NCBI RefSeq assembly: GCF_964204645.1
Contig: NC_134036.1
Coordinates: 3,582,001-3,646,000, forward strand
DNA from: Tubulanus polymorphus
Taxonomy: Eukaryota > Nemertea > Palaeonemertea > Tubulaniformes > Tubulanidae
DNA length: 64,000 nucleotides
Direction: 5' to 3'
Under the pieces are notes generated by a model. That model searched no databases. It was not told the DNA's origin and saw nothing but the letters and a program-made list of their open reading frames with translations. Within the stretch, counting starts at the first letter, position 1; every line of letters begins with the position of its first letter. A program made the translations under genes and the position numbers. Below are positions 33,700 through 60,275 of this stretch, in pieces.

Positions 33700-36600
33700 A
33701 TGGAAATTTTCGATTACCCTTATCAGCAGGACCCCCGAGTATTGAAGCAACAATGCGAGGGTGAGTTCTTTTGTATATTATGTTTTACTTAAGATCGTAT
33801 ATATACACCTATATGGTGCATTGATAAGAAAGTATATATAAGGGGTTAACTCCTTCCGTTTCAACGAGTGTTCGACAAGCATACGGTTAAGCTGTTCAGA
33901 TGCAGCAGGTCAAAATGACAGTTCAGTTGACCGGTGATAGCTCTTTTGTCGCCAACTGTAGATGCGCAACATCTGGGCCGCGTCAATCATTGAAATGAAG
34001 TCATTCGGTCGGACGTAATCTCGCGCGGGCCGGTTGTTGACAATCTACCCTTTACAAATAGCGCCATAAACGCTGTTAAGAGCGTATACGAAAGGATTCC
34101 TACCGAACACCCCGAACCATGAAAACGATAGCGAGGTAAGCGTTAGGCCATGAATTACTAAAAAGAATATATATAAGGATCGACGGTTAGAAAGAAGGGA
34201 GATAATACTGAATGACCGGTAGAGATTGATATCAATGTAAATTATTTCATCAGTCATAATGCCATCCTGTTTAACGCCAACATTTTTCAGGAAATAAGTT
34301 TGCCCATTCTAACTAAAATTCGATGAAAATACCATTCTTAATAACGTCATGTTATCCATTGGTCCGAGCAGCGGTATTATACAGACACAATAAGAAAGCT
34401 GTTCACATAAGATATTTATTTCTAAAAGTTCTGTGGTGATCAGTATTCCTTGAGTATACTTGAATATCAGGACCGAAACGTCACTCAATAATTCATCAAC
34501 TGCCACCTTCACTGTTCGTCTTTCCGGAATTCTTCTTACGCGTTCATCTTATACAGAAATTGTCTATCATCGCGGCCTAACACTAATATTAATTCATACT
34601 ATTGATAGTCATGTACGTAGCTTACAAAATACAGAACAACCAATTTAAGAATTAGACCACCTCCTTAGAATTAGACCACCTCCTTTTTGAATTGCACTGG
34701 CTACCTCTGTACACAAACGAGTGAGTTCAAGGCAGTTTTATTGGTTTTTAAAGCATTAAATGGTCTTTCCCCTCTGTGTATTAAAGAAATGCTGTCTCTT
34801 CATAGACCTAGTCGATGTCTTAGATCTACAAATCAAGTTATTCTGTCTCATGTACCTTTTAATACAATTTTTTACGGTGAAAGAGCTTTTGCTTGGGCTG
34901 CTACAATTTTATGGAAATATCTGCCCTCTTATTTGCGCAGTTGCACAGATATTGATGAATTTAAATCGGGTGTGAAAACCTACCTTTTTAAACAAAATTT
35001 ATTGAAATGTAATATGATTATGTGTATATCTTAAGTAAACCGCTCTAAGACGCAGTGGAGAGCGGTATAGAAATAAATGTTATTATTATTATTATTATTA
35101 GTCGGTAAAACATCTATTTTCGAGGAAAACCCTTCAAAGGACTTGCCGAAAACATGTATTCAAATTTCAGAAGGTTCTCTAAGTAATTTAAGTTGGGATT
35201 GGCATATACTAAAAGCGAAATAAGGTCAAATAAAAACGTTGAACTCACAATAGAAAATGAGAAGAAATTTACCGCAGTTCTGGTAATTTGGAAAATGTTT
35301 GAATAGCGAAGCGATTGTAAAAAAACCTCGACGATCGAATCCCATCCGTTTCCGAAGCTACACGCCAGTCTTTCGGTGCCATCGTTTTGCAGCTAGGCCT
35401 ACGACTTGTTTTCTAAAAGCCAGTTATGTTTTTGATAATTTGTGGTATAGGTTTATTATCGCTATGTTGGTGATCGAAGCCACGATCAGAAATCTGAAAA
35501 CATTCGCAGACATTAACGAAGGTGAGTCTTGTATACCTCAGGGGCCTGTTGCGCAGTCATGACATGAATCTAAGACCATTGTCTAAGACAAGCTTTATAG
35601 GTTTATAGCCAAACTGATAACTGAAGACCAGTTTTGAGATTTAAGATCACTTTTGGACTTAAGTCACGACTGCGCAATTGGGCCCAGGATAATGATAACG
35701 GTATATAAACTCCTCAAAATTTCATTTCGATCTCGGTATCAACCGAATGATTAAGTTAAAGGAAACATGATATATTCAAAAAAGTCCCCGATAATCTTTT
35801 GATGTTTGTTCGCCTCTGTTTTTGTGAATGTACAGAAGTACGAACGCAAGTGATGCACGTTAAACTTAGCCTCGACGAAGAGTTTGATCCCGATTTAAAA
35901 AACAGCGCATCGGTCGCGTACACGAATATGCAGAGAGAAATGGAATCGGCTGTAAGTGTTTCTCGACAACTCGTCAAAAATGCCTCTGTCAAGGGTATCT
36001 TTCCGGGGGCGGATCTAAGGGTTGCGCACCCCCACTAGTATTATGATTTGCCGTGATATGCAAATTAGATAAGCAAAGAACCGCGTGTAAAAATCCACAA
36101 AATTTGTTTATCCATTCATCAATTTATTCCTTCAATTTACTTCTCGCCAATTTACAATTATAGTTCGAAACACGATTTAGTAAAGAGTTCGCCCTGATCA
36201 GGAAAAAGAACTACTTGATTGCTCTTATTTCTAGCTCGACGAATTGATAGAAACGAAGAACTTTCAATGGTACATTGGAGTTAGAATCACAGGCTTTAGG
36301 TATTCGAATATCTAGATAGTTTTTATTTTACTAAACATTAGGCTAAAATGTAATGATTACTTTGTTTCTCCTAATCGGCCGGGTTGCCTTTTGTAAACTG
36401 CAATGACATTTGTAATCAGTTCATTTCTATATAACTGCCAGGTCTGTTATTGTTTGATTTTTAAATTAAGTAATGTACAAGGTAGATAGACGGCCGCCCT
36501 GGTTAACTTTTAAGCTCAGCTGAAATGAGAAACAAAGTATCAAGGTATTTTAGCCCTATTAGTTGCATTGATAATCGGCGTCGTTCCGTTTTTTTTTGTC

Positions 36601-39600
36601 AGTGAAGGCAGTACCATAGTCAATTTCGTAACGATCGTCAATTTAAGAATCTTGGAAAACAACCCGAACATGAACCCGGCTAGCGACTTTATTGACGACG
36701 TTATAAAGCCTGAATTCGGAGACGCGACGAAAAATATTGCAGGTCACGCCCTCAACGGGCAGTATAACGTACAGGAAAATACGTGTAAGTTCCACGGATA
36801 TCGGCCTTCGAAGAACAACTATAAGAGAGCATCGAGGTTTCTAATCGATGCTCGTGAAAATGGTTCGAAAGTTAAATGTTTTCTCCTTTTATCCCCTTTA
36901 CTTACTTATTTTACCCGCACGATATTTTCCAGTGGAGAAATTAGAGTTGAAGGACGAGAACGGTCTGTATAGAACGCAAGAAGAAGTTTGGCTCGAGAAT
37001 CCGGAAGAATTTCGAAAACACGAAGAAAGTATCTTAGGTAAAAATAAACGATAGAAAGAACTGACGTAATAAAAAGATTGTCACCATCGAACCAGGAAAG
37101 CTTTCACTCGCTATTCAAGCTTCGAATGATATTTGATGCTAATTTCTTCTCCCGTTTCAGAATCTCATAAATGCGATGTAAGTCTGAAGGCGATACAAAT
37201 TATTTTATCATTTCATTTTCGACCCCCAATTAACCTAATCATTTGCGGTACGTTATGTTACATTCTGATCATGCAGGAAGGGAATACCGAATGCGACGTC
37301 GAACCGAGGAGAAATTGGTGCATCGATTTAGCAGGAACGACGAGATGTGTTTACCCACCAGGTAGATATCCGAATATCTGAATATGCGATTTCATCCCAA
37401 ATTTCTGGTCCGTGTGCTCGTCTGCCCAGGAATAGTAAGGCTAGAAATTTCAGTTGCACAGTCACGACATAAAAATAAGTTTGGTCTTACTGGTCGTAAG
37501 TCTAAGCCATGACTATTCAACCGGCCCCTGATTCTAAGGATGACTAATCTTGCAAAATACATGCATCATTCATTTCCTATAAAGAAATTATGATTTTTCC
37601 AAGATGCACGCATATAATTTCCAATATCTACGTGTATATTTAAGTTAAGACTTCTGTTTTTCGTTCACACCCGACGATGATCTCTAGGGTGAGATCGAAA
37701 CGTCGTGTCTTATTTTTTGAATAAATAAATTCTCGATTTTAAAATTCTTTTAAATCGTGCACAGAGGTTTTTATCTTATTACCCGTTCTCCACGTTTGAG
37801 TGTGGTTATTTATTGTACTATTTTGTTTGTTTTTTTCAGGTGTAACTATCTGCAGCGTAAGTAAATTTGTTACGGTATGAATAGTGTTGAATGTCCGAGG
37901 GGGTGCAGGCTCCAGGCTGTAGCAGATTGATACCTGCAATTATAGCTGGGACCCTTTTCGATTTTCTCCGATACGAGGCCTATCACCGAACACGGAACAT
38001 TTTCCATATAACATCATAGTTACGATAAACTAACATTATTTAGTTAATCGTGTATTGCAACACACACGATCTGTCTTTATGCTTTTCAGTTCGATCCTTG
38101 TTTGCTCGATCGACACGACTGTAAAGTGCACGATCATGACAGATATAAAGCTCAATGCGTGGATAGTGGCAACAGTAAGAATATTGTTCAAAGTGGCCAA
38201 CGATTTCTTTCGAGAGTCTCTTTAAAAATCTACCCTTCCCGGAGAAACTTGGTCCAGTTCCGCAGTTCCGAGTTAAGATTTAACTCTGAGAGTTAACTCA
38301 TTGAAAATGAACTCTAACTTTAACTTTAACTCTAACTCAGAGCTGTGGAACTGGACCCAGAAACTGGCTTTTAGTTACAGTAACAGGGAAATCGAGTCGA
38401 AGTCGAGAACGACCTTCTGTCTAGAAATAAATGCAGCAATCAATCATTTAGAAAGATTTTAGAAAGGAATTTCGGTGGTCATTAATCTTGAAATGGGTTA
38501 CGAACATTTTGCTTTGTATATCAGACGTCCTGACATCCTCGAAATTGTCTGTTATTTTGAATTTTTACCGCAGAAGCCGAGATTATCACCATCGCATATC
38601 ATGGGATTCACGCTAGTAAAGGTAAAGCATATATACGTGGCTATAGTGTAAAGGATTCTTAAAATCGTTTCGACTGAAATTCGTGAAATCTAAAACGAAC
38701 GCAGCCAAATATTCATTAAATATCAATATATACGATCTAAGTTCTGTCCATCATTCTTCAGAAAATGGTAAATAATTGCAATCTATAATTTCTATTTCAG
38801 GGCAACCTTCATGCGACGTAAGTACATACCACGGTCGATCTGTTCGGTTTTGTCGAAACGAGTACAAACTGCGGAATACTTGAACTTTTGAATTATACGC
38901 GCATTTCAGGATGACCCGGATCCGTGTTTGGCCTTCGCGCCGCAAGTTTGCATCCCTACCGACGACGGTATCAAGTGTGGCTTCAGAGAAGGTGAGCGTG
39001 ATTATGCGTACACGAAATCGACTGAAAAAGGGTCTAGGATCATGAGCGCTGAAAGTGCATTTGGGGGTCCGCACATCAAATTGAAAATTTAATTCATGTT
39101 CCGTCTTTTACTTTGCAGGGGAAACGATCTGCGATGTAAGTTGCATGACGCGTGGAGTGATCATTCTGGACTCCATTCTATCAGAACATTCAATCTGCTT
39201 GTAGAATTCTACTAAAATTATCAAATTAAAAAGAAAATTCCTTATAGTCCTTATACTGCGTGTTGTCATGCACATCTCGATTTGCAGTAACTTTTGTAAA
39301 GGTTGTGTTTATCTTAATTTTCAATCTCATGATTTGCAAAGAATTTTTTCCATTTCTCCCATCTTCATCACAATTTTCATTCCATTTTATTATTTTTTTT
39401 CCGCACTCCTTCCAAGCCTTTGTGTAAAATACTCGCACAATAAAAAAAATTCTACAAACTTCTATTCTTATTTTTCCCTCGTCCATTTTGAAATACATAT
39501 TATAAGAAAAATTAGTTCTACTTTTCCCGTAACCCTCCAATTTTTTTCTTGAAAGAATCCGTGCTCCAAGTAATTAGAATAAAGGCCTTAGACAGAATAT

Positions 39601-42600
39601 CTGAAGCTATATTTTGTTTGCAGCACCATATTTGCGATGCAGGCCTCGAATGTAGACTAGTCAACGGTAGCACGAACCAAGCCCAGTGCTATGACGTAAA
39701 GCGTAAGTTGTCTTTATCACTTTGCTAAGTCGTTCCCGTATATGTTCATGCTTCATCAAATAGTTCAATTATACGAACGATTTTGTTTTTGTTTCGTTTA
39801 GATCCCAATGACACTCGCAATTTGCGACAGAATGGTAGGTACCGCGTACTAGAAAACAAATATTATTTGTCGTCTGAAGTTCGATGCAGGTCTTTCGTAA
39901 ACAATAAACCTCGACACACACTTTCATCGTCTGAAAATCCGATTCTTTTTCATTTTTCAGTTGGAGTCATTGACGTTGGTAAGCTCTACATTCCGTTGAA
40001 GTTAATGTACCGTTAAAATCGATGAGATACAAACGTTTTCAGGCCGCAACGAAATGAACATACATTCTAAAGATAGGCCTAAAGTTTATTTTACTTTTTC
40101 TATCATTTTCATATTTCATAATCGCTAACTTTGTTTTCAGTCGTGCCGTCCTGTAAGGTAAGACCAATTTAAAAAAGAAATCCCGTTGAGCAAATCGTTG
40201 TACATGTACATGTATACGATGCGTCACCATTTTCATTTGTAATCTTGTACAAAGCTTTGTGACTAGACCGATACACAAATACGCATGTTCGGCTAAGATT
40301 ATAGAGAATATTTAGGTCGAAAAATACTTAAAAAAGAGATGATTGGTGAACGCAAAATTCCATTCAGTGAATACGCATTTTGATAAAAATGTTCTTGAAA
40401 AAGAAGTCACAAATTTTAAGAATGTTCATAAGTAATGTGTCAAGATAGAGGCTTAGATCGGGCAGTTAGTCATCTAAAATGTAATGAAAAATAAAGGATT
40501 TATCGCGCGCTTCGTTATTTAGGACAAACCTGATCCATGCGAGAATGAAAAACCCCTTTCCTGTATACAAGAAATAGATGGCTACAGATGTGATTTTCTA
40601 GAAGGTGTGTTATTTCTTCCGCATCTCATCTACGTCGTTTCACCGGATTTTTTCTTCGTCTCTGCTCCGTTGGAAGTTTTCAAAAAAGTTTCAGTTCTCC
40701 TCTTCTTTGCGGCAGTCATGGATATCATTTTTCTATTCATCAACCGCATGTTCCCCCCAGTCCTCAAGTGTGGGTCGTGCGTTTTCTTCGTAATAATCTC
40801 ATTCGCCTAGAACACCTGTGGTAAATCAGACACTAAGGTTCTCGGCGAACAACCGAGAAGTCGAATATCCCAATGTTTGTTTAGGTGTCGGTGTTTTTTC
40901 CACTTCGTCATCATCATTTTGAGGCGTTCATTGCAGCCCTCATATAGCACTGGAGTTTTATGCTGCAATTCCATTTATTTCCACGAGTTTGTATAAAATA
41001 ACGCGATGATTACTAATAAACTATGTCCATAATATGAAGTGGCTCGGGTAAAATTGAAGGGAGGCAAATATAAAAAAAGAATTTCATACGTCCTATGATA
41101 TTGTTTTGGATTCAGTAGTCTACAAGTTGGCTGAAAAAAATTATTCGTGGAGTTTTGATGGTGGTTTTGATATAATTCTTTTTTTCTTCATTATGTATAG
41201 GAGAAAACATGTGTACTGTAAGTAGCCTCGTAAATTATGAAGATATTTTGTCTCGATTATTATCACGATTAACCTGCAATGAGAAAGAAATTAAAACATG
41301 TTGATAATTACAACAAATGATAATCTTGAGAGTTTAAGACCAAACTGATTATGGTTCCTGCCGAGTCTTCGAGGTTTAATGGGATTTGGGTAGTGTACCG
41401 AATAACGAGGCATGAGTTGGACGAAGAGTAGAAATAGTTAAATTCGTATGCTTATCATGTTTTCGAACCGCGTGAAACTAGCTTATCTGCCACTACCTTA
41501 CTTACCGCTGGAACTACCGATACATAAAACCTTGATCGAAGTTTTGCCTGTATGTCCAGATTAAGGGGAAAAAGTTTTTCTTAGTTTTTGAAATGCAACG
41601 AAGAGGCAGGAGAGGTGTGCCAACTGTTGAATGGAAATGCCCACGACGGTATGTGTGGACTACCGAGAGGTAAGTTGTTTGTAAGTTCCGAATGATCAAC
41701 AGTATTCAATTCAAACTGCATAGGCTTTCGAAATCTGGATCCATTTCCATCGATAAAATCAGCCGATATATTTCCTAAGAGTGTTATTTGACCGGTAACT
41801 ATGGAATTTGAGCCTTGCTTTATCCTACGAATTATTGGACATCTTTTTTTGTTTGTCGTCATCAAAATACCGTTTACAGAATTCTATTTTCTAATTCAAA
41901 TTGGAAACCGTTGATTGCTAAGTATATAAGAATCATAGCCACCCAGTGGCTTCTAGTATTCTCTGCAATTTGCACACGCTTCTTAATTGCCGAAATATTT
42001 CCAAACAAATTTTGCATATTGTAGATTCCGCCAACCTTACGTATATACTGAACGATTCTGATGAAAGTAAGTAAAATTGAACACGTTGTTCAGGCTAGAA
42101 AAATTGATACCTTGTTTCTCCTTCCTGCTGAGCTTTTAAAAAAGCTTTCAAGAGTCTATCTACCCTGTATATTACTATTTTATAACAAAATCAGGATCAT
42201 GCTAAGCACAACAGACCCGGGAGCTATAGAAATGAATTGATTACAAATTTTATTGCGATTTACTAGAATGACCCGGCCGATCAGGAGCAACAAGGTATCA
42301 TGTTTTAGTCTTATGTTTACATATTTCTTTTTTCCTTTTTTTCACATCTCTTTACGCCACTTCCTGTCTCGATTATCGTATTCTTAATTGCAGTTATGAC
42401 CTTGGAAATGGATCTCGAGAAAGAGGAAGAAGGTCAGTGCTAGCTCTGATTTGATTTTATTTCGATCCGAGGTTTGCCACCTGTATCTCAGTACACCATC
42501 GCTTATAATTCTTGTAGTCATTGTCTTCATTATTTTCATATTTTCAGTAAAGGATTGTAATGTGAGTATTGTAATGTGAGTATCCTCACCTTTGTACGGG

Positions 42601-45600
42601 GACGAACGCGAAAAAACCCATCGGAAACATCAAGCAGAAAAAGTTCCACGAAAAAGAAGTTATCCCAAAATAGGCTGTATGGAAAAATAATGGAAACTAA
42701 GGCAGCTTCGGTTTTATTCGCATTTATTCCGATTTTCTAGACCCCTTCGAATTCGTCTTCCTTTAAGCTTCGCTTCTTATGGAAAATTTAGAAGTACTTA
42801 TTTCTGTATGAGTTAATAGAGATTAAAGTACCGTTTCATTTTCTACTAGAAATTACTCTTCACAATACGCAAGAAATTGTATAGCTTTCTTTTTTAAACG
42901 ATTTTTGAGAAAATACATGATAAATTTGTTAGAAAATTTTATCAATTTGCAAAAAACCATTGATGACGTAAATAAACATGAATTAACCTTGCTATATCTG
43001 GACGTGCGGTCGAAGCGACAATTGATTTGAAGTGACGATTCTCGAATTTTACGATTGATTTCAGGATGATCCAACCATATGCAACACGCCTTTATCTTGT
43101 GTTCGGGTAAGGGGTAAATACACGTGCGGATTTAGACCAGGTAAATATAAGTATTTGTTTAGGCATAGGCAATAAATGTACATCGGCAGTGAATGCAGTT
43201 TCTAGCCTGACGTTACTTAAAAGTAAACAGCGCAGAATCAACTGCAATTCGATGTAAATATTCTTGCGAATATATCTGAAATTAGTTTTTCACATTTTCC
43301 TTTTTCAGGAGAGAATATTTGCAGCGTAGGTGAACACGGGGAAATTTCCTTCATCGCAAAACAAGAGAAAAAGAAATCTAAGTTCATTTAACTCATCACC
43401 GTTTGTCTCAGATTATTTATTGAATTTCATTTTTTTCCAGACACAATTTACTAACTGTAAACCCCCATCTATATGCGTGCTTATCAATCACGACCCGTAC
43501 AGAGCGTTGTGCCAGGCACCAGTAGGTAAGGTGGATTACGTTGCAGATCTCAATAATAGGATCTTAATTTTCTGTATATCGTTCATGGCATTTTTATATC
43601 TAATCTATAACCTGTAAAATGTGTCGTCACAAATCCCACGATAAGAATAGAACAGAATAGTCCAAAATGCATCGACGAGCTAGGCGTTCATTCAAAGTTA
43701 TCCTTCCCGAAGGATTACCTGGAAAAAGTCGAAATAAACCAGCAGCTCAAGGGCCAAACATTTTCGGACTCAAACTTTCCATAACATCCAATTTTCCGTC
43801 TATTCCTACTATTGCTACAACGCGGACATTGTTTCTTCAATGTTTAAAACCCCGTACCATTCGTATTTCAGTTGAAAAAGGCCCAGTGAGCATCATCATC
43901 GAAGATGGCGATGACGGTAAGTAGTTCCCTCGTGAAATCGAGTCACGTCACTAAGCGGTGCGTCTATGTTTGAGTTCAAAATTGTATACGTATTTCCAAT
44001 TCAATTAAGTCGCCATTTGGATACGTCGTCGACATAATGATTGTCACGAATACGCCGACTTAAGAAGCAAGTTTGACCGTAGCAAATGACAGTGACTGTT
44101 AGACACCTCCGTGTTGAGTCACTATATAGGGTCATCAATTATAGAACGTCAAATCAGCAAATTGTTATATATATATATATACATTGTGATTTACAGGTGA
44201 AATCATGCACTTCCAAATTCACTCGCCAAACGGTAAGCAGTAGATATTTTTCTAATGTAAAACGTGAATAGAAAATACTCAAATGTAAAAAAAAATAAAA
44301 TAACGTCTATACATTGTATCATCGTCAATTTCAGGAAGCGAAAGCTGTGAGGTAATGTATAGTGCAGATCACTTTTTAATTTGTGATGATATCCACGACG
44401 GTCGCATCTAGATAGACGAATCAAAATCTCGTCCTTTTTCAGAACAACGAAAGCATTTGTCCATCCCCGCTGTCCTGCGTACAAGACGTTAATGGGAACT
44501 ACAGTTGCGATCTGAAAGAAGGTAAGTTCCTGCCCTGGATGACTATGCCTTAAAGTATGAAACCGAGACATAGACTCATCCTCCCTCGCAGGATATACGT
44601 AGGCCTTTTAGCACCGTGAGATGAAACCTTAAGCTTGAATGCATGCTTTACTACGCTTGGCAGAATCATAATTCATGTTGATGACATACTTGTCATGTAG
44701 AACTCGATTCTCCACAGTCTATACCGCCATATGTTCCTCTACTTTTAGGTGAAGACATGTGCAAAGTACGTAGAAGGTCAGGGTGATACTGATCGACACA
44801 TGAGACTCGAGTTGGTTTTCGTAACATCTGTTCGATGGCCACGCGCCACATTCGGATTCTAATCCATCGCCTATCATTTCAGTTGGGGTACACCGAATGC
44901 GAGCCACCACACGTTTGTAAACTGATTGATGATGATCCACTGAAAGCGGTTTGTGAACCTGGCGACGTCGATCTAGGTAATGCTAAATTTGAAATATGAA
45001 CACATTACTGAGGTCCCCGCACAAGCTCATACCGAGTACAATCTGAATAAATATAATATTCCTGGATTATTGGAAAGTATATGTTCCTTACGGTTCGGGA
45101 ATACTAAATCGAATTGGGCATTGTGGATTTATTGAACGAAGAATTCAAGAGTCAGGTTCAAATTAATGGTAGCCCAACCTTTTACTCTGGTGCTGTGCAT
45201 ATTAATGATTCAACTACAATGCAGAACTTTGTTTTAATGGCCTCATACATTGCCTAAAACTTTACGAGCGCTACAAGTAAATTATGTATAAACATGTCTG
45301 AAATGTCTCTAATTCATCGTCATCGTTTGACAGATACGCAGAGTGATCTACCGACGAGTGACGACTACTGTAACGGAGTAAGTATAGGGTTAAAAGCCAG
45401 TCCACTCCTTACTTATGGCTCATGATGAGTCCAGAAGACAAAGATGAATCTAAAGATGAGTCTAAAGATGAATATGAAAGAAATCCCATAATAATACAGC
45501 CAAAGATGTTAACACTGGTGATGGCTATTATAGTTTATACCCGAAAGCCCCGAATATTGTATATACACTTTTACTCAAGACTACATCTTTGGCTGAATCA

Positions 45601-46066
45601 TCGTGGAATTTCTGTCGTATTATGGCACATATGCTAAGAGTCTACTGAGCGACTGATGAGCGAATATGAAATTTCGTAATTGTTTATTTTCAGAAAGACG
45701 TTTGTCCACCGCATTACCAATGCGAACCGGCCGATCCGTTCCATTCCAACTGTTCGATGACCTGGACGTGAGCAATAACGAACTAGCGCTTAACTCTCTA
45801 TCCATTTCTTTTTTTCTTAGTTTAGCTTTGGCTACGCTGTCACGATATCCTTTTTACATTTAAGGCCGACCGGGAAGACTCTGTTATTGGTGAGATGGAT
45901 GGAAGACGCGATACTGCAAAAGAAAATCGGCCGCGACGCGTTCGTAGCCGAAAGATTCGCCCAGCTTTTTGGTGATGACAACGCCGATTCGGATGACGTT
46001 CCCACGTCCACCAACGGGAACGATATTGCTAGCAAGTTGGAAAGCGAAGCAGTAAGGGACAAATAA
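33700..46066 (+). CDS. SEA-domain protein with eleven 4-cysteine modules encoded by 17-nt microexons
   Basis: Exons: 33700-33760, 35393-35521, 35836-35951, 36235-36299, 36603-36784, 36933-37037, 37161-37177, 37277-37361, 37840-37856, 38090-38174, 38574-38621, 38801-38817, 38910-38991, 39119-39135, 39624-39702, 39802-39834, 39961-39978, 40141-40157, 40523-40604, 41201-41217, 41585-41669, 42025-42066, 42394-42432, 42548-42561, 43065-43140, 43309-43325, 43441-43525, 43872-43916, 44197-44232, 44335-44351, 44443-44521, 44749-44765, 44883-44976, 45334-45377, 45694-45767, 45865-46066. Phases agree throughout: 745 residues. Residues 64-170 form a SEA domain with autoproteolysis-type site EG|STIV (126/127); residues 220-678 are five paired Cys modules plus one, with acidic linkers; the tail has no membrane segment. 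The first two exons are least certain: no signal peptide, only a short hydrophobic stretch (WYRFIIAMLVIEA). Extracellular location is inferred. AATAAA is at 46181. Confidence 0.8.
34685..35100 (+). mobile_element. 3' end of a non-LTR retrotransposon (LINE), in intron 1 of the SEA gene
   Basis: The translation carries the end of a LINE reverse-transcriptase ORF: LHWLPLYTNE, then after a frameshift LLVFKALNGLSPLCIKE, RPSRCLRSTNQ, GERAFAWAATILW and FKSGVKTYLF, then a stop at about 35032. The short 3' UTR ends GAGCGGTATAGAAATAAATG followed by (TTA)n at 35081-35100, the microsatellite tail typical of L2-like/CR1-clade LINEs. It is 5'-truncated and frameshifted, so inactive. Confidence 0.85.
35541..35686. 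repeat. Hairpin MITE-like repeat, family A (SEA-gene intron 2)
   Basis: Begins GGGGCCTGTTGCGCAGTCAT and ends CACGACTGCGCAATTGGGCCC. It contains CTAAGACCATTGTCTAAGAC and the ACTTTTGGACTTAAGTC motif shared with the copy at 21935. Confidence 0.7.
36358..36455 (-). repeat. Dispersed repeat, family H, reverse copy (SEA-gene intron 4)
   Basis: Reads CTCCTAATCGGCCGGG and later CCAGGTCTGTTATTG, the reverse complement of the copies at 11300 and 42188. Confidence 0.55.
38251..38359. repeat. Hairpin MITE-like repeat, family B (SEA-gene intron 10)
   Basis: Begins GGTCCAGTTCCGCAGTTCCG and ends CAGAGCTGTGGAACTGGACCC, with GAGTTAA/TTAACTC motifs facing each other across CATTGAAAATGAAC. Confidence 0.7.
42188..42300 (+). 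repeat. Dispersed repeat, family H (SEA-gene intron 22)
   Basis: ACAACAGACCCGGGAGCTAT ... GACCCGGCCGATCAGGAGCA and CAAGGTATC; matches the copy at 11300 in order and orientation. Confidence 0.6.
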
Positions 46067-46186: not shown

Positions 46187-47382
46187 ATTACGTTCTAGTT
46201 TCATGGAAAAGTTTAAGCTTTAAATGGTTAGGTTGGAATTGTTTGCCTACAATTGGAAATGTGAAGCAACCAATTGTATTTATACCAAAGTTTGCGTGTA
46301 ACTTTTTCTCATCGAATATACATATATGCTATGTGCTGTATTCGTGCTTATAACTATAATGTTAAAATCCCACAATACAAAAGAGAGTGTTACTACGAGT
46401 CAAAGGTTTCTTTAATTAAGGTATGAATAATATTTGATTCGATGTTTCCACTCGATCAGTTATCGTTACACTCTTATAAATAACAGTGACCGGGGCGGTT
46501 TTATCAGAACCACGAAAGCAGCTCGGCTGTATTGCAAATCTGCCACCCTTCGTATCGACAGCTATTGTTCTTCATCGTTTTTCGGCTTTTTTCCATTGTA
46601 TTATCGCATGGACCCATTGTTTTAGCGCGGTTTGATCGTTGAAATTGTATACTCCTCATCGGGTTCGAAAAACGGCATATCGTATTAATGATTACCGATG
46701 ATATAACATTGGTATCGTCTTTTCTTGGGAACTTCTTTGTTTAAATCGAATATCCGCTTGATATTGGAAATTATATTTCAGAGTATTTTCTTCGACTTAA
46801 AAGTAGGATCCGCCCTTGAACGGATGCGGTAACACCCGACGTACGGGAAATCTAAACGTATTGTCTTGTGTACGATATAAGATCGAACCACATATTCTTT
46901 TCAATTATTCTTTACCAAATTCGTAAATTAGACACATTTGGATGAGTTAAACAGAAAAGATAAATCAAAACCAGACGCAAAGTTAGTGAATCGGCTTCAT
47001 AAACGAATGTCCAGGTTTTTTTTGAAGTTGGTAACTACTTTCCCAGTACTCTTATGCTATAACATAGATGCATCATTCTGCGCATGGATAGCGTGCATTT
47101 CTCACATATTGATTCGGATCTGGTTTACAGATATAAAGATATGAAATATTGTACGTTATGGAATATTGTAATGGTAGGGTAGATTTCGCTTCACCGAAAT
47201 TGCAGGATTGGAAACTATTCATCAACTCAGTCTTCAAGTTCTCGGCGTCAGTTTGACTCAGTAATGCAGTTGGCGTCTGATCAACCGCTATATAGTATCT
47301 TGAGGATTTATCAATACTTGGAACGCATGTTGCTTTAAGTTCTGCTGCGTTCCTCGACCAAGCAGTGGTGCAACCTGAATTG
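46187..47382. other. Intergenic DNA with the conserved upstream block of GPCR gene 1
   Basis: The first 700 bases hold nothing I can support. From about 46940 the sequence (AAACAGAAAAGATAAA, GAATCGGCTTCATAA, CCAGTACTCTTATG, GATTCGGATCTGGTTT, CACCGAAATTGCAGG) is homologous to blocks before GPCR genes 4, 5 and 6. It probably contains the shared promoter or 5' UTR. Confidence 0.5.
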
Positions 47383-48498
47383 ATGACTTCACTAAATGCG
47401 TCGGTCGGTACTGAAATACTTTACTCCAACCATTCGGGCATAGCAACCACCACTGAGAAGGCATGGTTTAAACCTCATTCGCGGTGTAAATACATCCATC
47501 ACGCCGATTACAATCCGTTTCACGTGAATCTGTATATACAGATCACTACTTACGTCGTTTTCAGCATCGCCATCTTCGGTTTGATGGCGAATTCATTGTC
47601 TTTTATCATCCTCAGTAAAGAACGTTCGAACAACACCAGTATATTCTATTTGAGATGTTTGGCTGTTGCGGACATGTTTATTTGTTTGTCTTATATTGTA
47701 TTTGACTTTCAGTATCGGCTCTACATGCACACGCTGTTACTGGACATGACTGCTGAAATAAACCACGCTATGAAGCGCATGTATTCATACACTCAAGACA
47801 TTCGATTTTTGTTTTCAAGTATCAGTGACCTGATAACATTGTTAATAGCAATAGACAGATATATCGTTGTTTGTTGGCCTCTGAAAGCTGTCAGAATTAT
47901 AACCATGAGAAAGAGTTGTATCTTGGTCACTTTTTGTGTGATAATTTCTGCCTGTAATCATTGTAAGAGTGTTTTCAAGTATTATAACTATCGTTCCCGT
48001 AATCCGTGCACTGGACACGAAAGATGGAATCAGAAATTCACTCCATTTGCTAAAAATATTTATTTGAAATACTACGACGTATTTGTCCGCGCTCCTATAT
48101 TTACTATAATCCCGACAGTGATAGTAGTTCTAATAACTATCCGATTGATTTTCACGTTGAGACGCGCAGGAGCAGCGAGAAAAACGATGTCTACAAATCA
48201 TCAAACTTCTAACAGCAGCAGCAGCAGCAGTGACCGTAGTTTAACTCTGACGTTAGTTCTCATCTCTAGTTTGTATTTATTGAAGAATGCATTGTCTGTC
48301 CGAGCCTCCATCGTCAACTTGATAAAAACTTTAGGTGGTTCACTCGGTAAAGGCATTTCTCACGTTTATATGAACCCAGTTGGGGCCATCGGAAGAATGA
48401 TTGTATCATCTTGTAATTTCGTCGTTTATTGCGCTTCGAGGCGTCGCTTTCGAAATCAACTGAAAGCGATGTTTTCGGTTAAGAAGTGTCAAATCTGA
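47383..48498 (+). CDS. Rhodopsin-class GPCR, tandem copy 1
   Basis: Single-exon frame of 371 residues from ATG 47383, which lies at the position aligned with the ATG of every paralog (upstream in-frame codons are GTG). Seven hydrophobic segments are visible. Class A marks: LAVAD in TM2, IDRY at the end of TM3 followed by VVCWPLKA, a basic third loop, and NFVVYCASRRRFRNQ in place of NPxxY. N-glycosylation sites NAS (5) and NHS (16). The N-terminal tail has one Cys in RCKYIHHAD (Cys35) and the second extracellular loop one in NPCTGHERW; TM3 has no Cys at its outer end, and TM6 has no CWxP. The TM4 region (RKSCILVTFCVIIS) resembles genes 4 and 5, while TM5-7 resemble genes 2 and 3. The tail NFxxY-type motif is common in FMRFamide/peptide receptor-like families, but the ligand is unknown. 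Confidence 0.9.
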   Translation: MTSLNASVGTEILYSNHSGIATTTEKAWFKPHSRCKYIHHADYNPFHVNLYIQITTYVVFSIAIFGLMANSLSFIILSKERSNNTSIFYLRCLAVADMFICLSYIVFDFQYRLYMHTLLLDMTAEINHAMKRMYSYTQDIRFLFSSISDLITLLIAIDRYIVVCWPLKAVRIITMRKSCILVTFCVIISACNHCKSVFKYYNYRSRNPCTGHERWNQKFTPFAKNIYLKYYDVFVRAPIFTIIPTVIVVLITIRLIFTLRRAGAARKTMSTNHQTSNSSSSSSDRSLTLTLVLISSLYLLKNALSVRASIVNLIKTLGGSLGKGISHVYMNPVGAIGRMIVSSCNFVVYCASRRRFRNQLKAMFSVKKCQI

Positions 48499-49622
48499 TA
48501 CATTCAATTCTTACAAGCTTTCGATATTTCTTATTTTCAATAATCACATTTCAATGGTTACTTCTATTCATGAACATTCGCCTCTTACAGTTCATTAGAT
48601 GTTTATCTTAAAGCGAAATAAGAAGAAAAGAACTGCTTATTTATTAATTACGATATTGAAATATCGAAACATAATCTACTGTCATAGATAAAATACTCGT
48701 TGCTTAATCCCTAAATATAGACAAAATGCCTAGTCCACATTTCATATGAGCCAGTTCCACAATCAACCGCAACCAACTACAGAAGACTAACTACAGATCT
48801 GGACCCAGTTCCACAGTTGTCAGTTAGAGTTAACTGTGAGTTAAAGTTAGTTCATTTTCAATGTTTTAACCCAGAGTCAAATCTTAACTCAGAACTGTGG
48901 ATTTGGACCCTGCTTTAAAACTACATTCGTAAACACTATACAACGTTTTTTTCATCAATTTCTATATAAACTCGAATCAAATTTCCGAGTCTTAAGAATT
49001 CCGAATAATGACTTCAGATTATGATTCAAACCTAACGATTTTATTCACTGACGTTGTGATCAACGCTGGCGCTATATGACGTCATATCGGTGGTTATTTT
49101 ATCGGTTCTTGAGACGTGACGTCCAAATACGCCGTATACCTATTATCACGTGACTACAGCCGGCACAAATACTACGAGACCAGTATATAATATGCATACT
49201 GTATCATTACACGCGTGTCTTCCTGGATTGTTCTAAATTTCACGTAATATAACATCATTTTCATTTTTCATTGATGCGATTAAAAAGCTATTACTTTTTA
49301 GGTGAAATGCGTATATTTTTGCTATTGGAATTTTGTCATCAATGCGACTAACTCCGTATAGTAAAAAACTCACCAACAAACATTGATTGATTTCGTTAAT
49401 GTATAAACATCTCCCTGAGGCATATTAGGTTTTGAAGGACTGCAATTCATAGATTTCTCATCTCTCAGACTCAGTGTTCATTTGACTCAGCAGTTTGGCT
49501 GTCTGGTGGGTCGTTCTATAGCGAGCAATATTCTTAATCGCTCATAACTAAAATGCGACTGTTTGCAATGTTTGGAAGTTTAAGTCCTCGATTTCAAAAA
49601 GAAGATTCTTCAAACTGAATTG
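48499..49622. other. Spacer between GPCR genes 1 and 2; first copy of a duplicated segment
   Basis: Nearly identical to 50769-51901 apart from small indels, so this is the 5' half of a tandem duplication unit of about 2.27 kb. It contains a family B hairpin (48801-48909), a GACGTCA-type CRE-like site near 49079-49086, and a TATA-like GTATATAATATGC at about 49183-49195, some 430 bases before ATG 49623. The latter two are candidate promoter elements for gene 2. Confidence 0.6.
48801..48909. repeat. Hairpin MITE-like repeat, family B
   Basis: Begins GGACCCAGTTCCACAGTTGT and ends CAGAACTGTGGATTTGGACC. The copy at 51070-51179 differs at very few positions because it was duplicated with the GPCR unit. 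Confidence 0.7.
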
Positions 49623-50768
49623 ATGGCCGCGCAAAATGTATCGGTTGGTGCAGGGAACTTTACCGCCAACACCACAGGAGTGACAACCACAACTGAGAAG
49701 GCATTGTTTAAACCTCATTCGCGGTGTAAATACATCCATCACGCCGATTATAAACCGTTTCACGTAAATCTGTTTCTGCAGATAACTACTTACGTCGTTT
49801 TCAGCATCGCCATCTTCGGTTTGATGGCGAATTCATTGTCTTTTATAATTCTCAGCAAAGAACGTTCGAACAACACTAGTATATTCTATTTGAGATGTTT
49901 GACCGTTGCGGACATGTTTATTTGTTTGTCTTGTGTCGTATTTGACTTCCAGTATGGGCTCTACAGTCACACGCTGTTACTGGACATGACTGCTGAAATA
50001 AACCACGTTATGAAGCGCATGCATATATATACTCAACACATTCGAAAAGTTTTTTCAAGTATCAGTGACCTGATAACATTGTTAATAGCAATAGACAGAT
50101 ATGTAGTTGTTTGTTGGCCTCTGAAAGCTATCAGAATCATAAGCATCAAGAAAAGCCATATCAACGTCACTATTGTTGTAATAATTTCTCTTTGCAACCA
50201 GTCTAGAGAATTTTTCTTGTACTATAACCATCGTTCCCGTAATCCGTGCACTGGACACGAAAGATGGAATCGGAAATTCACTCCATTTGCTAAAAACATT
50301 TATTTGAAATACTATGGCGTGTTTGTCCGGGCTCCTATATTTACTATAATCCCGACAGTGATAGTGGTTCTGATAACTATCCGATTGATTTTCACGTTGA
50401 GACGCGCAGGAGCAGCGAGAAAAACTATGTCTACAAATAATCAAACTTCTAACAGCAGCAGTAGTAGCAGCAGCGGCAGCAGCAGCAGCAGCAGCAGCAG
50501 TGACCGTAGTTTAACTCTGACGTTAATTCTCATTTCATGTTTCTATTTATTGAAGAATGCATTGTCTGTTCGAGCTTCCATCGTCAACTTGATACAAACT
50601 CTCGGCGGTTCACTCGGTAAAGGTATTTCTCATGTTTATATGAACCCAGTTGTGGACATCGTAAGAATGATTGTATCATCTTGTAATTTCGTCATTTATT
50701 GCGCTTCGAGGTGTCGCTTTCGAAATCAACTGAAAGCGATGTTTTCGATTAAGAAGTGTCAAATCTGA
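49623..50768 (+). CDS. Rhodopsin-class GPCR, tandem copy 2
   Basis: Single exon, 381 residues. N-glycosylation sites NVS (5), NFT (12) and NTT (15); Cys35 in RCKYIHHAD; TM1 about 52-76 with Asn70; TVADMF in TM2 (LAVAD in the others); IDRY 157-160; second-loop Cys209; TM5 about 236-257; TM6 about 298-312 without CWxP (CFYLL instead); NFVIYC in TM7. The third loop holds the longest Ser run of the cluster, broken once by Gly (residues 276-293, mostly AGC codons). Nearly identical to copy 3 in body and upstream DNA, so a recent duplicate. One replacement in the C-terminal tail, SRCRF for SRRRF, is private to this copy. All class A signalling marks are intact, so it is probably functional; ligand unknown. 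Confidence 0.9.
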   Translation: MAAQNVSVGAGNFTANTTGVTTTTEKALFKPHSRCKYIHHADYKPFHVNLFLQITTYVVFSIAIFGLMANSLSFIILSKERSNNTSIFYLRCLTVADMFICLSCVVFDFQYGLYSHTLLLDMTAEINHVMKRMHIYTQHIRKVFSSISDLITLLIAIDRYVVVCWPLKAIRIISIKKSHINVTIVVIISLCNQSREFFLYYNHRSRNPCTGHERWNRKFTPFAKNIYLKYYGVFVRAPIFTIIPTVIVVLITIRLIFTLRRAGAARKTMSTNNQTSNSSSSSSSGSSSSSSSSDRSLTLTLILISCFYLLKNALSVRASIVNLIQTLGGSLGKGISHVYMNPVVDIVRMIVSSCNFVIYCASRCRFRNQLKAMFSIKKCQI

Positions 50769-51901
50769 TACGTTCAGTTCTAACAAGCTTTCGATATTTC
50801 TTATCTTCAAGAATCACATTTCAATGGTTACTTCTATTCATGAACATTCGCCTCTTACAGTTCATTAGAGGTTTATCTTAAAGCGAAATAAGAAGAAAAG
50901 AACTGCTTATTTATTAATTACGATATTGAAATATCGAAACATAATCTACTGTCATAGATAAAATACTCGTTTTTAATCCCTAAATATAGACAAAATGCCT
51001 AGTCCACATTTCATATGAGCCAGTTCCACAATCAACCGCAACCAACTACAGAAGACTAACTACAGATCTGGACCCAGTTCCACAGTTGTCAGTTAGAGTT
51101 AACTGTGAGTTAAAGTTAGTTCATTTACAATATTTTAACCCAGAGTCAAATCTTAACTCAGAACTGTGGATTTGGACCCTGCTTTAAAACTACATTCGTA
51201 AACACTATACAACGTTTTTTTTCATCAATTTCTATATAAACTCGAATCAAATTTCCGAATCTTAAGAATTCCGAATAATGACTTCAGATTATGATTCAAA
51301 CCTAACGATTTTATTCACTGACGTTGTGATCAACGCTGGCACGATACGACGTCATATCGGTGGTTATTTTATCGGTTCTTGAGACGTTACGTCCAAATAC
51401 GCCGTATACCTATTATCACGTGACTACAGCCGGCACAAATACTACGAGACCAGTATATAATATGCATACTGTATCATTACACGCGTGTCTTCCTGGATCG
51501 TTCTAAATTTCACGTAATATAACATTATTTTCATTTTTCATTGATGCGATTAAAAAGTCTATTACTTTTTAGGTGAAATGCGTATATTTTTGCTATTGGA
51601 ATTTTGTCATCAATGCGACTAACTCCGTATAGTAAAAAACTCACCAACAAACATTGATTGATTTCGTTAATGTATAAACATCTCCCTGAGGCATATTAGG
51701 TTTTGAAGGACTGCAATTCATAGATTTCTCATCTCTCAGACTCAGTGTTCATTTGACTCAGCAATTTGGCTGTCTGGTGGGTCGTTCTATAGCGAGCAAT
51801 ATTCTTAATCGCTCATAACTAAAATGCGACTGTTTGCAATGTTTGAAAGTTTGGAAGTTTGAGTCCTCGATTTCAAAAAGTAGATTCTTCAAACTGAATT
51901 G
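50769..51901. other. Spacer between GPCR genes 2 and 3; second copy of the duplicated segment
   Basis: Matches 48499-49622 almost base for base, including the family B hairpin (51070-51179) and the TATA-like GTATATAATATGC near 51463. Differences are single bases and short indels. Confidence 0.6.
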
Positions 51902-53014
51902 ATGGCCGCGCAAAATGTATCGGTTGGTGCAGGGAACTTTACCGCCAACACCACAGGAGTGACAACCACAACTGAGAAGGCATTGTTTAAACCTCATTCG
52001 CGGTGTAAATACATCCATCACGCCGATTATAAACCGTTTCACGTAAATCTGTTTCTACAGATCACTACTTACGTCGTTTTCAGCATCGCCATCTTCGGTT
52101 TGATGGCGAATTCATTGTCTTTTATAATTCTCAGCAAAGAACGTTCGAACAACACTAGTATATTCTATTTGAGAGGTTTGGCCGTTGCGGACATGTTTAT
52201 TTGTTTGTCTTGTGTCGTATTTGACTTCCAGTATGGGCTCTACAGTCACACGCTGTTACTGGACATGACTGCTGAAATAAACCACGTTATGAAGCGCATG
52301 CATATATATACTCAACACATTCGAAAAGTTTTTTCAAGTATCAGTGACCTGATAACATTGTTAATAGCAATAGACAGATATGTAGTTGTTTGTTGGCCTC
52401 TGAAAGCTATCAGAATCATAAGCATCAAGAAAAGCCATATCAACGTCACTATTGTTGTAATAATTTCTCTTTGCAACCAGTCTAGAGAATTTTTCTTGTA
52501 CTATAACCATCGTTCCCGTAATCCGTGCACTGGACACGAAAGATGGAATCGGAAATTCACTCCATTTGCTAAAAACATTTATTTGAAATACTATGGCGTG
52601 TTTGTCCGCGCTCCTATATTTACTATAATCCCGACAGTGATAGTAGTTCTGATAACTATCCGATTGATTTTCACGTTGAGACGCGCAGGAGCAGCGAGAA
52701 AAACAATGTCTACAAATAATCAAACTTCTAACAGCAGCAGCAGCAGTGACCGTAGTTTAACTCTGACATTAATTCTAATTTCATGTTTCTATTTATTGAA
52801 GAATGCATTGTCTGTTCGAGCCTCCATCGTCAACTTGATAAAAACTCTCGGCGGTTCACTCGGTAAAGGCATTTCTCACGTTTATATGAACCCAGTTATG
52901 GACATCGTAAGAATGATTGTATCATCTTGTAATTTCGTCATTTATTGCGCTTCGAGGCGTCGCTTTCGAAATCAACTGAAAGCGATGTTTTCGATTAAGA
53001 AATACCAAATCTGA
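51902..53014 (+). CDS. Rhodopsin-class GPCR, tandem copy 3
   Basis: Single exon, 370 residues. Same plan as copy 2, from which it differs mainly by a short Ser run in the third loop (SNSSSSSDRS), YLRGLAVAD in TM2 (Gly where the other copies have Cys or, in copy 6, Tyr), MDIVRM in TM7 and an end of KKYQI. IDRY, NFVIYC, Cys35 and the second-loop Cys are kept. It shares its whole upstream region with copy 2; the downstream region diverges from those of copies 1 and 2 soon after the stop. Intact and probably functional; ligand unknown. Confidence 0.9.
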   Translation: MAAQNVSVGAGNFTANTTGVTTTTEKALFKPHSRCKYIHHADYKPFHVNLFLQITTYVVFSIAIFGLMANSLSFIILSKERSNNTSIFYLRGLAVADMFICLSCVVFDFQYGLYSHTLLLDMTAEINHVMKRMHIYTQHIRKVFSSISDLITLLIAIDRYVVVCWPLKAIRIISIKKSHINVTIVVIISLCNQSREFFLYYNHRSRNPCTGHERWNRKFTPFAKNIYLKYYGVFVRAPIFTIIPTVIVVLITIRLIFTLRRAGAARKTMSTNNQTSNSSSSSDRSLTLTLILISCFYLLKNALSVRASIVNLIKTLGGSLGKGISHVYMNPVMDIVRMIVSSCNFVIYCASRRRFRNQLKAMFSIKKYQI

Positions 53015-55016
53015 TACGTTCAATTCTCACAAGCTTTCGATATTTCTTATTTTCAAGAATCGAATTTCAGTGGTTTCTTTTATCCATGCACAATCGCCTC
53101 TTATAGTTCATACTTATACAATTACACTATAAACTAAAGCAATCGCTATTGAGATCGCGAGGCTTATCTGTAAGCGAAATAAAAAACAAAACAATTGCTT
53201 ATCCATAGATATAGACAGAAAGCATAGCCCACAGTTCATATGAGCCAGTTCCACAAAACCGTAATCAACCGTAATATCTAATACAGAACAGAAGACTTAC
53301 TGTAGATCTTCTTTTAAACTACAAAACTTATTTGTAAACACCACACACCGTGTTTTCAATAATTTCTATATAAACTGTCGAATCGAATTTCAGCATCTTA
53401 AGAATTCCGAATTTTGACTTGAAATTATGATTTAAACTTGATGATTTTGTTCACTGACGCTGCGATCAACGCCGACAATATTGCGTCATATATGTATACG
53501 ATCATTGTATAGGGTTCGAACTCACGAGACGTGACGTCAATACACGCCCTATACAAATGGACTCGTTATTATGTGACTAACAGCCACGGATACTACTAGA
53601 CGAGTATATACCGCTGGATTTAAGGGGAAACCCCATTAGGAACAAAATCCGAGGACAATATCGGATGTGATTGAACGCTATCGTCTCGGTTCGGAAATGT
53701 ACGATTTAGATTGAACTCATTCGTCAACGGTTCGGACGAAACGATGTGTATATATGACGGTCGAATTTTGAATTGGACTTGCTTCTCGACCCTAGGAAAC
53801 CCTTAACCTGACGCAAAGGTAAACTTCGATTATTCTATTCCGCTTGTCTTATGTGCATCTGATTTTCGTATTAGAAGGTCGATCGTCGCATTTGTTCAAG
53901 TGTTTCGGGGCTTCGCATTCAAGGCGAGTACAACCATAGACTGTAGAGGACTACTACCAGAAACCAGTAGTATATTCAGTAAATTATCTGAAGTAAAGCA
54001 TCTTCAAATTGGCAAAGTCAAAGTCAGTATTCCGCTTTAAATATAATTTGCAGACTCAAAATAGAAACAATAAAGAAGTTTCCAGTTTCTAGGCGCCATT
54101 TTGTCGCGGTCCCTCGAGGTCCCCATTGTTGCGATAATTTGCGCTCATTTTTGAAGCAGAAGTTTAGATTGAATATCATATAGTTCTGCAGTCCCTTGCT
54201 TGATTAACTTAATTAATACACCATTTCAAAGGAAATGAAATGCAGGAATTTGCCGGTGGTTATTGGATTTTTTAACGCAACAATTGAGAGCAGTGACGAT
54301 TAGATTAAATTGAATTTATCGTTCATCGATTGTAAACTAAAAAGTATAAAGTACCTTTTCTTTTGAAATTGCTATTCGCTGAAAGGCGATGTTATCGGCA
54401 TATGTAATTACGTGAATTTTCATGCTGTCCATTCCGTACATTTCCATATTTCGTGAATTCATCCTTTTTTTATGGCCTATGACATATTTTTCATATAGTA
54501 AATATATTTCTCCATTTAAACGTATTCAATTTCTCCTCAACCGAATTCGTAAACTAAACTGAACTTGAATTAGTTAAACCGAGGCGAAAACCAGATCATA
54601 AAGTTAGTAAATCGGCTTCATAATCGAATATAGCTTGTAAGTTGTTTAATAGATGGTTACTATTTTTCCAGTTCACTAACGCTATATATGATTCTGCACA
54701 CGAGAAGCCTACATTTTTCACTAATTGATTCGGATCTGATTTCCTAAAATCTCTCACGTTACAAAATAATGTATGTGATGGCATGGAAGAACATCGCTTC
54801 ACCGAAATCGCAAGATTGAAAACTAATCATTAGCAGTTCCTGTCGCCCAGCGTCAGTTTAACTCTGATGCAGTTGGTGACGTCTCAACCACAGTTTACAG
54901 TATGTTCAAAATTCGTTAGTAATTGAGACGCTTCTTGTTGTAGCGAGTTCGACTGCGTTGGGAGTTTAATTAAACTGATCGTTCCTCGATCTAGCAGTGG
55001 TGCACAAATTGAATTG
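53015..55016. other. Spacer between GPCR genes 3 and 4
   Basis: The first 600 bases are a diverged version of the spacer after genes 1 and 2. From about 53620 to 54540 the sequence is unique in the window and has no supported gene. From about 54540 the conserved upstream block of the gene 1/4/5/6 type begins (GTAAATCGGCTTCATAA, GATTCGGATCTGATTT, CACCGAAATCGCAAG). Confidence 0.5.
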
Positions 55017-56147
55017 ATGGCTTCTGAAAATGTATCGATTAGTGCTGGAATTCGTTACTCCAACCAGTCAGAAGTGACAACCGCCACTGAGAAGGCTGGG
55101 TTTAAACCTCATCCGCGGTGTAAATACATCCATCACGCGGATTACAAACCGTTTCACGTGAATCTATTTCTGCAGATCACGACTTATGATATATTCAGCT
55201 TTGCCATCTTCGGCTTCGGCGCAAATCTACTGTCTTTTATTATTCTCAGCAAAGAACGCTCAAACAACACCAGTATATTCTATTTGAGATGTTTGGCTGT
55301 TGCGGACATGTTTATTTGTTTGTCTTATATTGTATTCGCCTTTCAGTATCGACTCTACAGTCACACACTGTTACTGGACATGACTGCTGAAATAAACCAC
55401 GCTATGAAGCGCATGTATTCATACACTCAAAACATTCGCATTGTGTTTTCAGGTATCAGCGATCTGATAACATTGTTAATAGCTTTAGACAGATATATCG
55501 TGGTTTGTTGGCCTCTGAAAGCTGTAAGAATCAATAGCAGGAAGAAAAGTTATGTATTGGTCACTTTTTGTGTGATAATTTCCGTTTGCGATCAGACTAA
55601 GAATTTTTTCAAGTTTAAAGCTACTAATTATACCCGTAATCCGTGCACTGGTCACGAGAGGTGGACTCAGAAGTTGACTCCATTTGCTAAAAACATATAT
55701 TTGAAATACTACGGGGTTTTCGTCCGCGCTCCTTTATTTATCATAATCCCAACAGTGATAGTAATTCTGATAACTATCCGATTGATTTTCACGTTGAGAC
55801 GCGCAGGAGCAGCGAGAAAAACCATGTCTACAAATAATCAAACTTCTAACAGCAGCAGCAGCAGCAGTAGCAGTGACCGTAGTTTAACTCTGACGTTAGT
55901 TCTCATTTCGTGTTTCTATTTAGTGAAAAAATCATTTAATGCCCAAGCCTCTATCACGAACTTGATAGAAACTTTAAATGGTAAAATTGGTAAAGGTATT
56001 TCACACGTTTACTTAAACCCGGTTCAGGATATCATAAAGATGATTGTAGCGTCCAGCAATTTCGTCATTTATTGCGCTTCGAGGCGTCGCTTTAGGAATC
56101 AACTGAAAGCGATGTTTACGATTAAAAGATTCCACGTAAAACCATAG
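55017..56147 (+). CDS. Rhodopsin-class GPCR, tandem copy 4
   Basis: Single exon, 376 residues. Differs from copies 1-3 by TM1 FSFAIFGFGANLLSF, LDRY for IDRY at TM3, second loop FKATNYTRNPCTGHERW (extra N-glycosylation site NYT), and a distinct TM6-TM7: LVKKSFNAQASITNL, LNGKIGKG, NPVQDIIKM and NFVIYC, ending in RFHVKP. The third loop has a pure Ser run of 8 before DRS. No Cys at the start of TM3 and no CWxP, as in all copies. It forms a close pair with copy 5, including flanks. A 12-bp hairpin spans its stop codon. Probably functional; ligand unknown. Confidence 0.9.
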   Translation: MASENVSISAGIRYSNQSEVTTATEKAGFKPHPRCKYIHHADYKPFHVNLFLQITTYDIFSFAIFGFGANLLSFIILSKERSNNTSIFYLRCLAVADMFICLSYIVFAFQYRLYSHTLLLDMTAEINHAMKRMYSYTQNIRIVFSGISDLITLLIALDRYIVVCWPLKAVRINSRKKSYVLVTFCVIISVCDQTKNFFKFKATNYTRNPCTGHERWTQKLTPFAKNIYLKYYGVFVRAPLFIIIPTVIVILITIRLIFTLRRAGAARKTMSTNNQTSNSSSSSSSSDRSLTLTLVLISCFYLVKKSFNAQASITNLIETLNGKIGKGISHVYLNPVQDIIKMIVASSNFVIYCASRRRFRNQLKAMFTIKRFHVKP

Positions 56148-56172
56148 AAGTGTAAGCGAACACTTCTATGGT
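56141..56172 (+). other. Perfect hairpin across the stop codon of GPCR copy 4
   Basis: ACCATAGAAGTG (56141-56152), loop TAAGCGAA, then CACTTCTATGGT (56161-56172). The stem contains the TAG stop. The same structure is present at copy 5 (58333-58364) and absent from copies 1, 2, 3 and 6. Confidence 0.7.
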
Positions 56173-58339: not shown

Positions 58340-58364
58340 AAGTGTAAGCGAACACTTCTATGGT
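58333..58364 (+). other. Perfect hairpin across the stop codon of GPCR copy 5
   Basis: Same 12-bp stem and 8-base loop as at copy 4; the TAG stop (58337-58339) is in the left arm. Confidence 0.7.

Positions 58365-60239: not shown

Positions 60240-60275
<36 letters not shown>

Follow-up and report, generated by a model that had tools for sequence, protein, structure and literature searches.

A tandem array of frame-breaking microexons in a putative secreted-protein gene of a spiralian genome

Genes for secreted proteins that are built as arrays of microexons have been described in flatworms and in aphids, and have been regarded as oddities of those lineages. Here we analyzed a 64,000-nucleotide (nt) stretch of contig NC_134036.1 (the window), in which a first-pass annotation had pointed out a series of 17-nt exons, and we describe a 36-exon gene on its + strand that carries homologous, frame-breaking microexons at the same place in ten repeated four-cysteine modules. 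Each of these modules is encoded by a microexon (M1 to M10) and a larger partner exon (P1 to P10), and the array also contains an eleventh module copy (M11 and P11) and small linker exons (L1 to L7). The array gene is a distinct variant within the microexon-array genes for secreted proteins, with asymmetrical microexons that break the frame and occupy a constant position within the tandem modules, and represents a third architecture of such genes; a partial literature search found no spiralian for which such an array has been reported. It is likely that the product is a secreted protein of 711 amino acids composed of a SEA domain, five double domains of eight cysteines and a final half-domain, that its modules are split modules of class 1-1, and that its microexons are constitutively spliced.

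The micro-exon genes (MEGs) of schistosomes and other platyhelminths encode secreted products with a signal peptide, as the array gene is predicted to do, and resemble it in having many very small exons, and the linkers L1 to L7 are as small and symmetrical as MEG exons (PMC4350168). The differences are that the M exons have lengths of 3n+2 and are asymmetrical (phase 1 to phase 0), that Cys-rich modules follow a SEA domain, and that one gene was found here whereas the MEGs form families. Nor is the coding sequence held mostly in very small symmetrical exons as it is in MEGs, the ten M exons being asymmetrical; 19 of the 36 exons are 51 nt or shorter, and the larger exons hold the majority of the coding bases. 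The bicycle genes of aphids, and megacycle, encode secreted Cys-containing proteins, as the array gene probably does, and are likewise divided into numerous very small exons whose phases follow a regular pattern (PMC9168663). However, almost all bicycle exons share one phase, starting at codon position 2, while the exons of the array alternate 1-0-1-0, and the array gene is non-insect and has a SEA domain. Shuffled modules of class 1-1, which follow Patthy's rule, are matched in that M and P together make an exact 1-1 module of 3n length and that P-to-M borders often fall in a Gly codon (PMC8001218), but here a phase-0 intron interrupts every copy after the first Cys, and no copy belongs to a Pfam family above the cut-off. 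Lastly, the small microexons of plants (1–15 nt) are also tiny and partly not of 3n length, code for pieces of conserved motifs and often escape annotation (PMC8831610); they lie scattered, a gene typically having one or two, in contrast to ten homologous copies in tandem in one animal gene.

Exon layout and encoded protein

The gene model was assembled by hand from the window sequence and then checked by script. Its 36 coding exons extend from the ATG at 34119 to the end of the stop codon at 46066 and join in one open frame of 711 amino acids; all internal exon borders are AG/GT, and the first exon (E1) has a donor only. The exons, all on the + strand, are as follows.

34119..34135, +, E1 (17 nt), signal-peptide n-region with the start codon, GT donor
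35451..35521, +, E2, remainder of the signal peptide
35836-35951, 36235-36299 and 36603-36784, +, E3, E4 and E5, SEA domain
36933..37037, +, E6, Cys-free stretch preceding the modules
37161-37177 and 37277-37361, +, module 1 (A), M1 (17 nt) and P1 (85 nt)
37840-37856 and 38090-38174, +, module 2 (B), M2 (17 nt) and P2 (85 nt)
38574..38621, +, linker L1 (48 nt), phase 1-1
38801-38817 and 38910-38991, +, module 3 (A), M3 (17 nt) and P3 (82 nt)
39119-39135 and 39624-39702, +, module 4 (B), M4 (17 nt) and P4 (79 nt)
39802-39834 and 39961-39978, +, linkers L2 (33 nt) and L3 (18 nt), phase 1-1
40141-40157 and 40523-40604, +, module 5 (A), M5 (17 nt) and P5 (82 nt)
41201-41217 and 41585-41669, +, module 6 (B), M6 (17 nt) and P6 (85 nt)
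42025-42066 and 42394-42432, +, linkers L4 (42 nt) and L5 (39 nt), phase 1-1
42548-42561 and 43065-43140, +, module 7 (A), M7 (14 nt) and P7 (76 nt)
43309-43325 and 43441-43525, +, module 8 (B), M8 (17 nt) and P8 (85 nt)
43872-43916 and 44197-44232, +, linkers L6 (45 nt) and L7 (36 nt), phase 1-1
44335-44351 and 44443-44521, +, module 9 (A), M9 (17 nt) and P9 (79 nt)
44749-44765 and 44883-44976, +, module 10 (B), M10 (17 nt) and P10 (94 nt)
45334-45377 and 45694-45767, +, module 11 (B-like), M11 (44 nt) and P11 (74 nt, exit phase 2)
45865..46066, +, last coding exon with the stop codon, Cys-free tail

The distribution of cysteines is the single most telling fact for the microexons: the protein has 44 Cys, one in each M exon, three in each P exon and none in the 14 remaining exons, so that modules without their microexons would be left with the odd count of three. 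The first-pass annotation had proposed nine 17-nt exons and one 14-nt exon in one gene, each entering in phase 1, leaving in phase 0, ending with a Cys codon and one further codon, and supplying the first Cys of a four-Cys module, with partner exons of 76–94 nt that restore phase 1. All of this holds for modules 1 to 10, with AG/GT borders throughout, and a 17-nt exon alone does break the frame as it had claimed, since skipping any single microexon leads to a stop codon 1–61 codons on. Its description of the microexon as the first half of the module was too generous, because the microexon contributes 5–6 of ~30–34 residues and one of the four Cys. Beyond the ten modules noted there, we identified an eleventh copy, whose first Cys lies within the 44-nt exon at 45334-45377.

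Three analyses address the alternative in which chance AG–GT segments, or the ends of longer exons, have been mistaken for 17-nt exons and the protein is made from the partner exons alone. First, acceptor and donor matrices were trained on the non-microexon exons only and used to rank all frame-compatible open exons of 5–62 nt in each gap; each of M1 to M10 ranks first among the 1–50 candidates of its gap. Second, the 200 dinucleotide shuffles made of each gap yielded no more than one exon of the same length and equal score, and none with the Cys. Third, a blind scan of both strands for strong 11–23-nt exons of 3n+2 length with Cys as the penultimate codon returned exactly the ten known microexons from the whole window, and one hit from ~92 kb of other loci of the genome. 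Chance segments are rejected by these results. Longer exons reaching upstream fail for seven of the ten microexons, which have no alternative in-frame acceptor ahead of the upstream stop, and the P exons cannot be joined to each other in frame. The microexons, with their one Cys each, are also conserved in the manner of coding sequence, their mean pairwise identity being ~0.55 at codon position 1, ~0.51 at position 2 and ~0.28 at position 3, the last equal to the intron background. What speaks for the non-exon explanation is that the layout is read from DNA and that the open frame upstream of M7, M8 and M10 contains alternative AGs; we regard it as extremely improbable.

At M7, a perfect 14-base-pair (bp) tandem duplication, ATTGTAATGTGAGT (42554-42583), copies the end of the exon together with its donor, creating two identical donors 14 nt apart; splicing from the second would disrupt the frame. 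Between P1 and M2 there is a possible extra 42-nt exon of phase 1-1, VAQSRHKNKFGLTG (37454-37495), with a splice-model score of 13.8.

Upstream of the modules, the in-frame join of E1 and E2 gives the putative signal peptide MKTIARFIIAMLVIEA, which was judged by eye and would direct secretion of the protein. A start codon at 33700, which corresponds to the 33.7-kb limit given in the first-pass annotation, was considered and rejected, because the phase-1 end of its exon allows no in-frame join to E2; a join to E3 is possible only if the signal peptide is dropped. Next in the protein order, before the eleven four-Cys modules, comes a SEA domain well above the Pfam cut-off (PF01390, 37 bits against 26.4, E=4e-9, residues 40–103) with an EGSTIV motif. 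Since this domain is spread over E3, E4 and E5, it independently supports the upstream gene model. It is the sole recognised domain, as searches of NCBIfam and of solved structures (PDB) gave no match above the cut-off. For the modules themselves Pfam also gave no match above the cut-off, the best being EGF_3 (E=0.12) and DUF7107 (E=0.042), and membership of the EGF or follistatin-like (FOLN) families is further opposed by the four Cys per module, compared with six in EGF. Disulfide pairing would take place within the modules.

Homology comparisons of the gene covered this one genome. A genome-wide search with the B-type microexon pattern yielded four exact matches, all in this gene, and a search with the whole protein returned only the gene itself and one weak SEA match; no similar array was seen around some other SEA matches, on contigs C8, C9 and C2. 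The nearest likeness is to a mucin-like gene with a SEA domain on contig C9 (~2.504–2.507 Mb, minus strand); there too a phase-2 intron immediately precedes the GS motif of the SEA domain, and a C-x5-C-x5-C-x10-C stretch similar to the modules comes after this domain. The gene differs in carrying mucin-type repeats upstream and in encoding the four-Cys stretch and the next EGF-like half in one exon, with no microexons. The similarity is weak (E=2.08 in the whole-protein search, no match in pairwise BLASTP), and a relation by descent between the two genes is only a suggestion.

The repeated unit and its origin

Modules 1 to 10 are of two types, A and B, that alternate strictly. The odd/even division is the best of the 126 five-and-five splits of these modules, with a within-minus-between similarity of 30.0 against 19.7 for the next. 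The C3–C4 spacing is 8–9 in A modules and 11 in B modules. Within all five units the spacing C4(A)-x8-C1(B) is invariant, whereas the distance from a B module to the following module ranges from 19 to 35; the seven linker exons, which the first-pass annotation had overlooked and which are 18–48 nt long, all of 3n length, phase 1-1 and Cys-free, are located only after B modules. Because of the strict alternation and of the invariant A–B spacing as against the variable distance after B, the natural unit is a double domain of ~65 residues and eight Cys encoded by four exons (~17-82-17-85 nt). The first-pass annotation had named the single microexon–partner pair as the unit of duplication; alternation and spacing point to the A–B exon quartet instead.

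A unit of one M–P pair could still be argued for if the A and B types arose by later divergence at alternating positions. The two types do agree in where they are split and in their four-Cys frame, which requires that duplication began with a single pair. The strict alternation over five units, the invariant A–B spacing and the presence of linkers solely after B nonetheless argue for duplication of quartets after that first step, making pairwise duplication throughout quite improbable.

The order of events would then be as follows. An ancestral extracellular module of class 1-1 was presumably split by a phase-0 intron one codon past its first Cys, leaving a 17-nt (once 14-nt) exon ahead of one of 76–94 nt. 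The split would already have been present in the ancestral module and copied with it as whole M-P-M-P units duplicated in tandem, probably together with their linker exons, to give five 8-Cys double domains, mostly spaced by short Cys-free linkers, and a final half-domain. Module 11, the half-domain, is closest to the B modules 8 and 10, with module 9 near behind. A length of 3n with phase-1 introns on both sides, which defines class 1-1, is found for M+P of modules 1 to 10 and not for module 11, whose exons (44+74 nt) do not sum to 3n and whose P11 exits in phase 2; this module is therefore not a skippable cassette. The array provides a natural experiment on whether an edge-split module survives repeated duplication.

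Splicing signals and frame logic

The same array is a ten-replicate natural experiment on how the spliceosome handles exons of 14–17 nt. According to the first-pass annotation, a microexon and its partner must be included or skipped together. The two can indeed be skipped jointly in frame, but they are not the only unit that the frame allows: P(k) and M(k+1), along with any intervening linkers, can be removed in frame to leave a chimeric four-Cys module, and each of L1 to L7 is a single 1-1 cassette of 3n length that can be removed alone. Such frame permission is no evidence of use.

Both the acceptors and the donors of the microexons are strong in the splice model, a feature reported, in work cited in PMC8831610, as a signature of constitutively spliced human brain microexons. 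Neural microexons that depend on eMIC are marked by an upstream UGC, a long AG-free zone and weak sites (PMC8797185). None of these marks was found here: upstream UGC (TGC) motifs are not enriched before the microexons, and the AG-free zone upstream of them is no longer than at the other exons of the gene. The introns flanking microexons are short (91–596 nt). A GTRAGT donor follows 7 of 11 M exons, 3 of 11 P exons and 2 of 7 L exons (p=0.12 for the difference), and the last exon base is G in 2 of 11 M exons against 8 of 11 P exons (14 of 18 for P and L together; M versus P and L, p=0.003). This donor pattern of M exons, GTRAGT despite a last base other than G, fits compensation on the donor side. 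Given the strong sites, and given that omission would produce a three-Cys module and a frameshift, constitutive inclusion of the microexons appears to be the best reading.

Regulated alternative splicing, in which pairs, chimeric joins or linkers would be skipped by tissue to vary the secreted protein, is the obvious competitor, because each M+P of modules 1 to 10, each P+(L)+M set and each L exon has 3n length and is removable in frame, and because MEGs use small symmetrical exons in this way (PMC4350168). The strong microexon sites and the lack of UGC enrichment and of long AG-free zones speak against it, and the symmetry itself calls for no splicing function, class 1-1 being the default of extracellular modules (PMC8001218); we consider such regulation unlikely. 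A bolder version treats the alternating 1-0-1-0 array as a combinatorial device: as microexons end and partners begin in phase 0, each microexon has an in-frame join to every later partner. If so, one gene could give many secreted proteins that differ in how many A and B halves they contain and in what mixture, with linkers as options, and transcripts with incomplete modules would be frame-shifted and sent to decay. This version we hold to be doubtful.

Several points weigh against the secreted, constitutively spliced protein that we favor. The exon layout is read from DNA, though the sequence supports it very well, and the upstream AGs of M7, M8 and M10 noted above belong here as well. The M1–P1 intron (37178-37276, 99 nt) is of 3n length and open, and its retention, which is possible, would add 33 residues without a stop. 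E1, at 17 nt, and the 5' end of the gene are the least secure part of the model. The higher GTRAGT rate of M donors is not significant taken alone (p=0.12), and the co-duplication of linkers with the quartet relies on a weak linker similarity judged by eye. The observation stands and merits RNA follow-up. Standard annotation is predicted to miss or garble this gene, because aligners tend to drop such tiny exons and each omission breaks the frame.

Two copies of a dispersed element of ~210 bp lie in opposite orientation at 36343-36555 (intron E4–E5) and ~42082-42300 (intron L4–L5), flanking E5 to L4. A first look at the genome gave 1676 candidates for this element. The inverted arms could pair in the pre-mRNA and favor circles of the exons between them.

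Lineage of the genome and other features of the window

Homeobox matches located a single Hox cluster.

contig C6, ~5.32–5.63 Mb (~320 kb), all +, ten Hox-type homeobox genes (loci L041 to L049 and L052)

The cluster includes Lox2-, Lox4-, Lox5- and Post2-type sequences, assigned by eye; Gsx- and Cdx-type sequences are on contig C5. This Hox set places the animal in Spiralia, with a mollusc/annelid-type character. Schistosome Hox genes are dispersed, and the single cluster speaks against a flatworm; with Lox2-, Lox4-, Lox5- and Post2-type genes in one cluster, the array gene also differs from MEGs in not being a platyhelminth gene.

Three further features were noted in the window.

47296-60551, +, tandem array of intronless rhodopsin/Srw-like G protein-coupled receptor genes: six long open frames that closely resemble each other and contain poly-Ser runs of different lengths, the first gene matched in Pfam
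62317-63252, minisatellite with units of ~78/172 bp, several of its frames being open
13606-14196, Arf/Arl-family gene contained in one open exon and judged by eye to be Arl8-like

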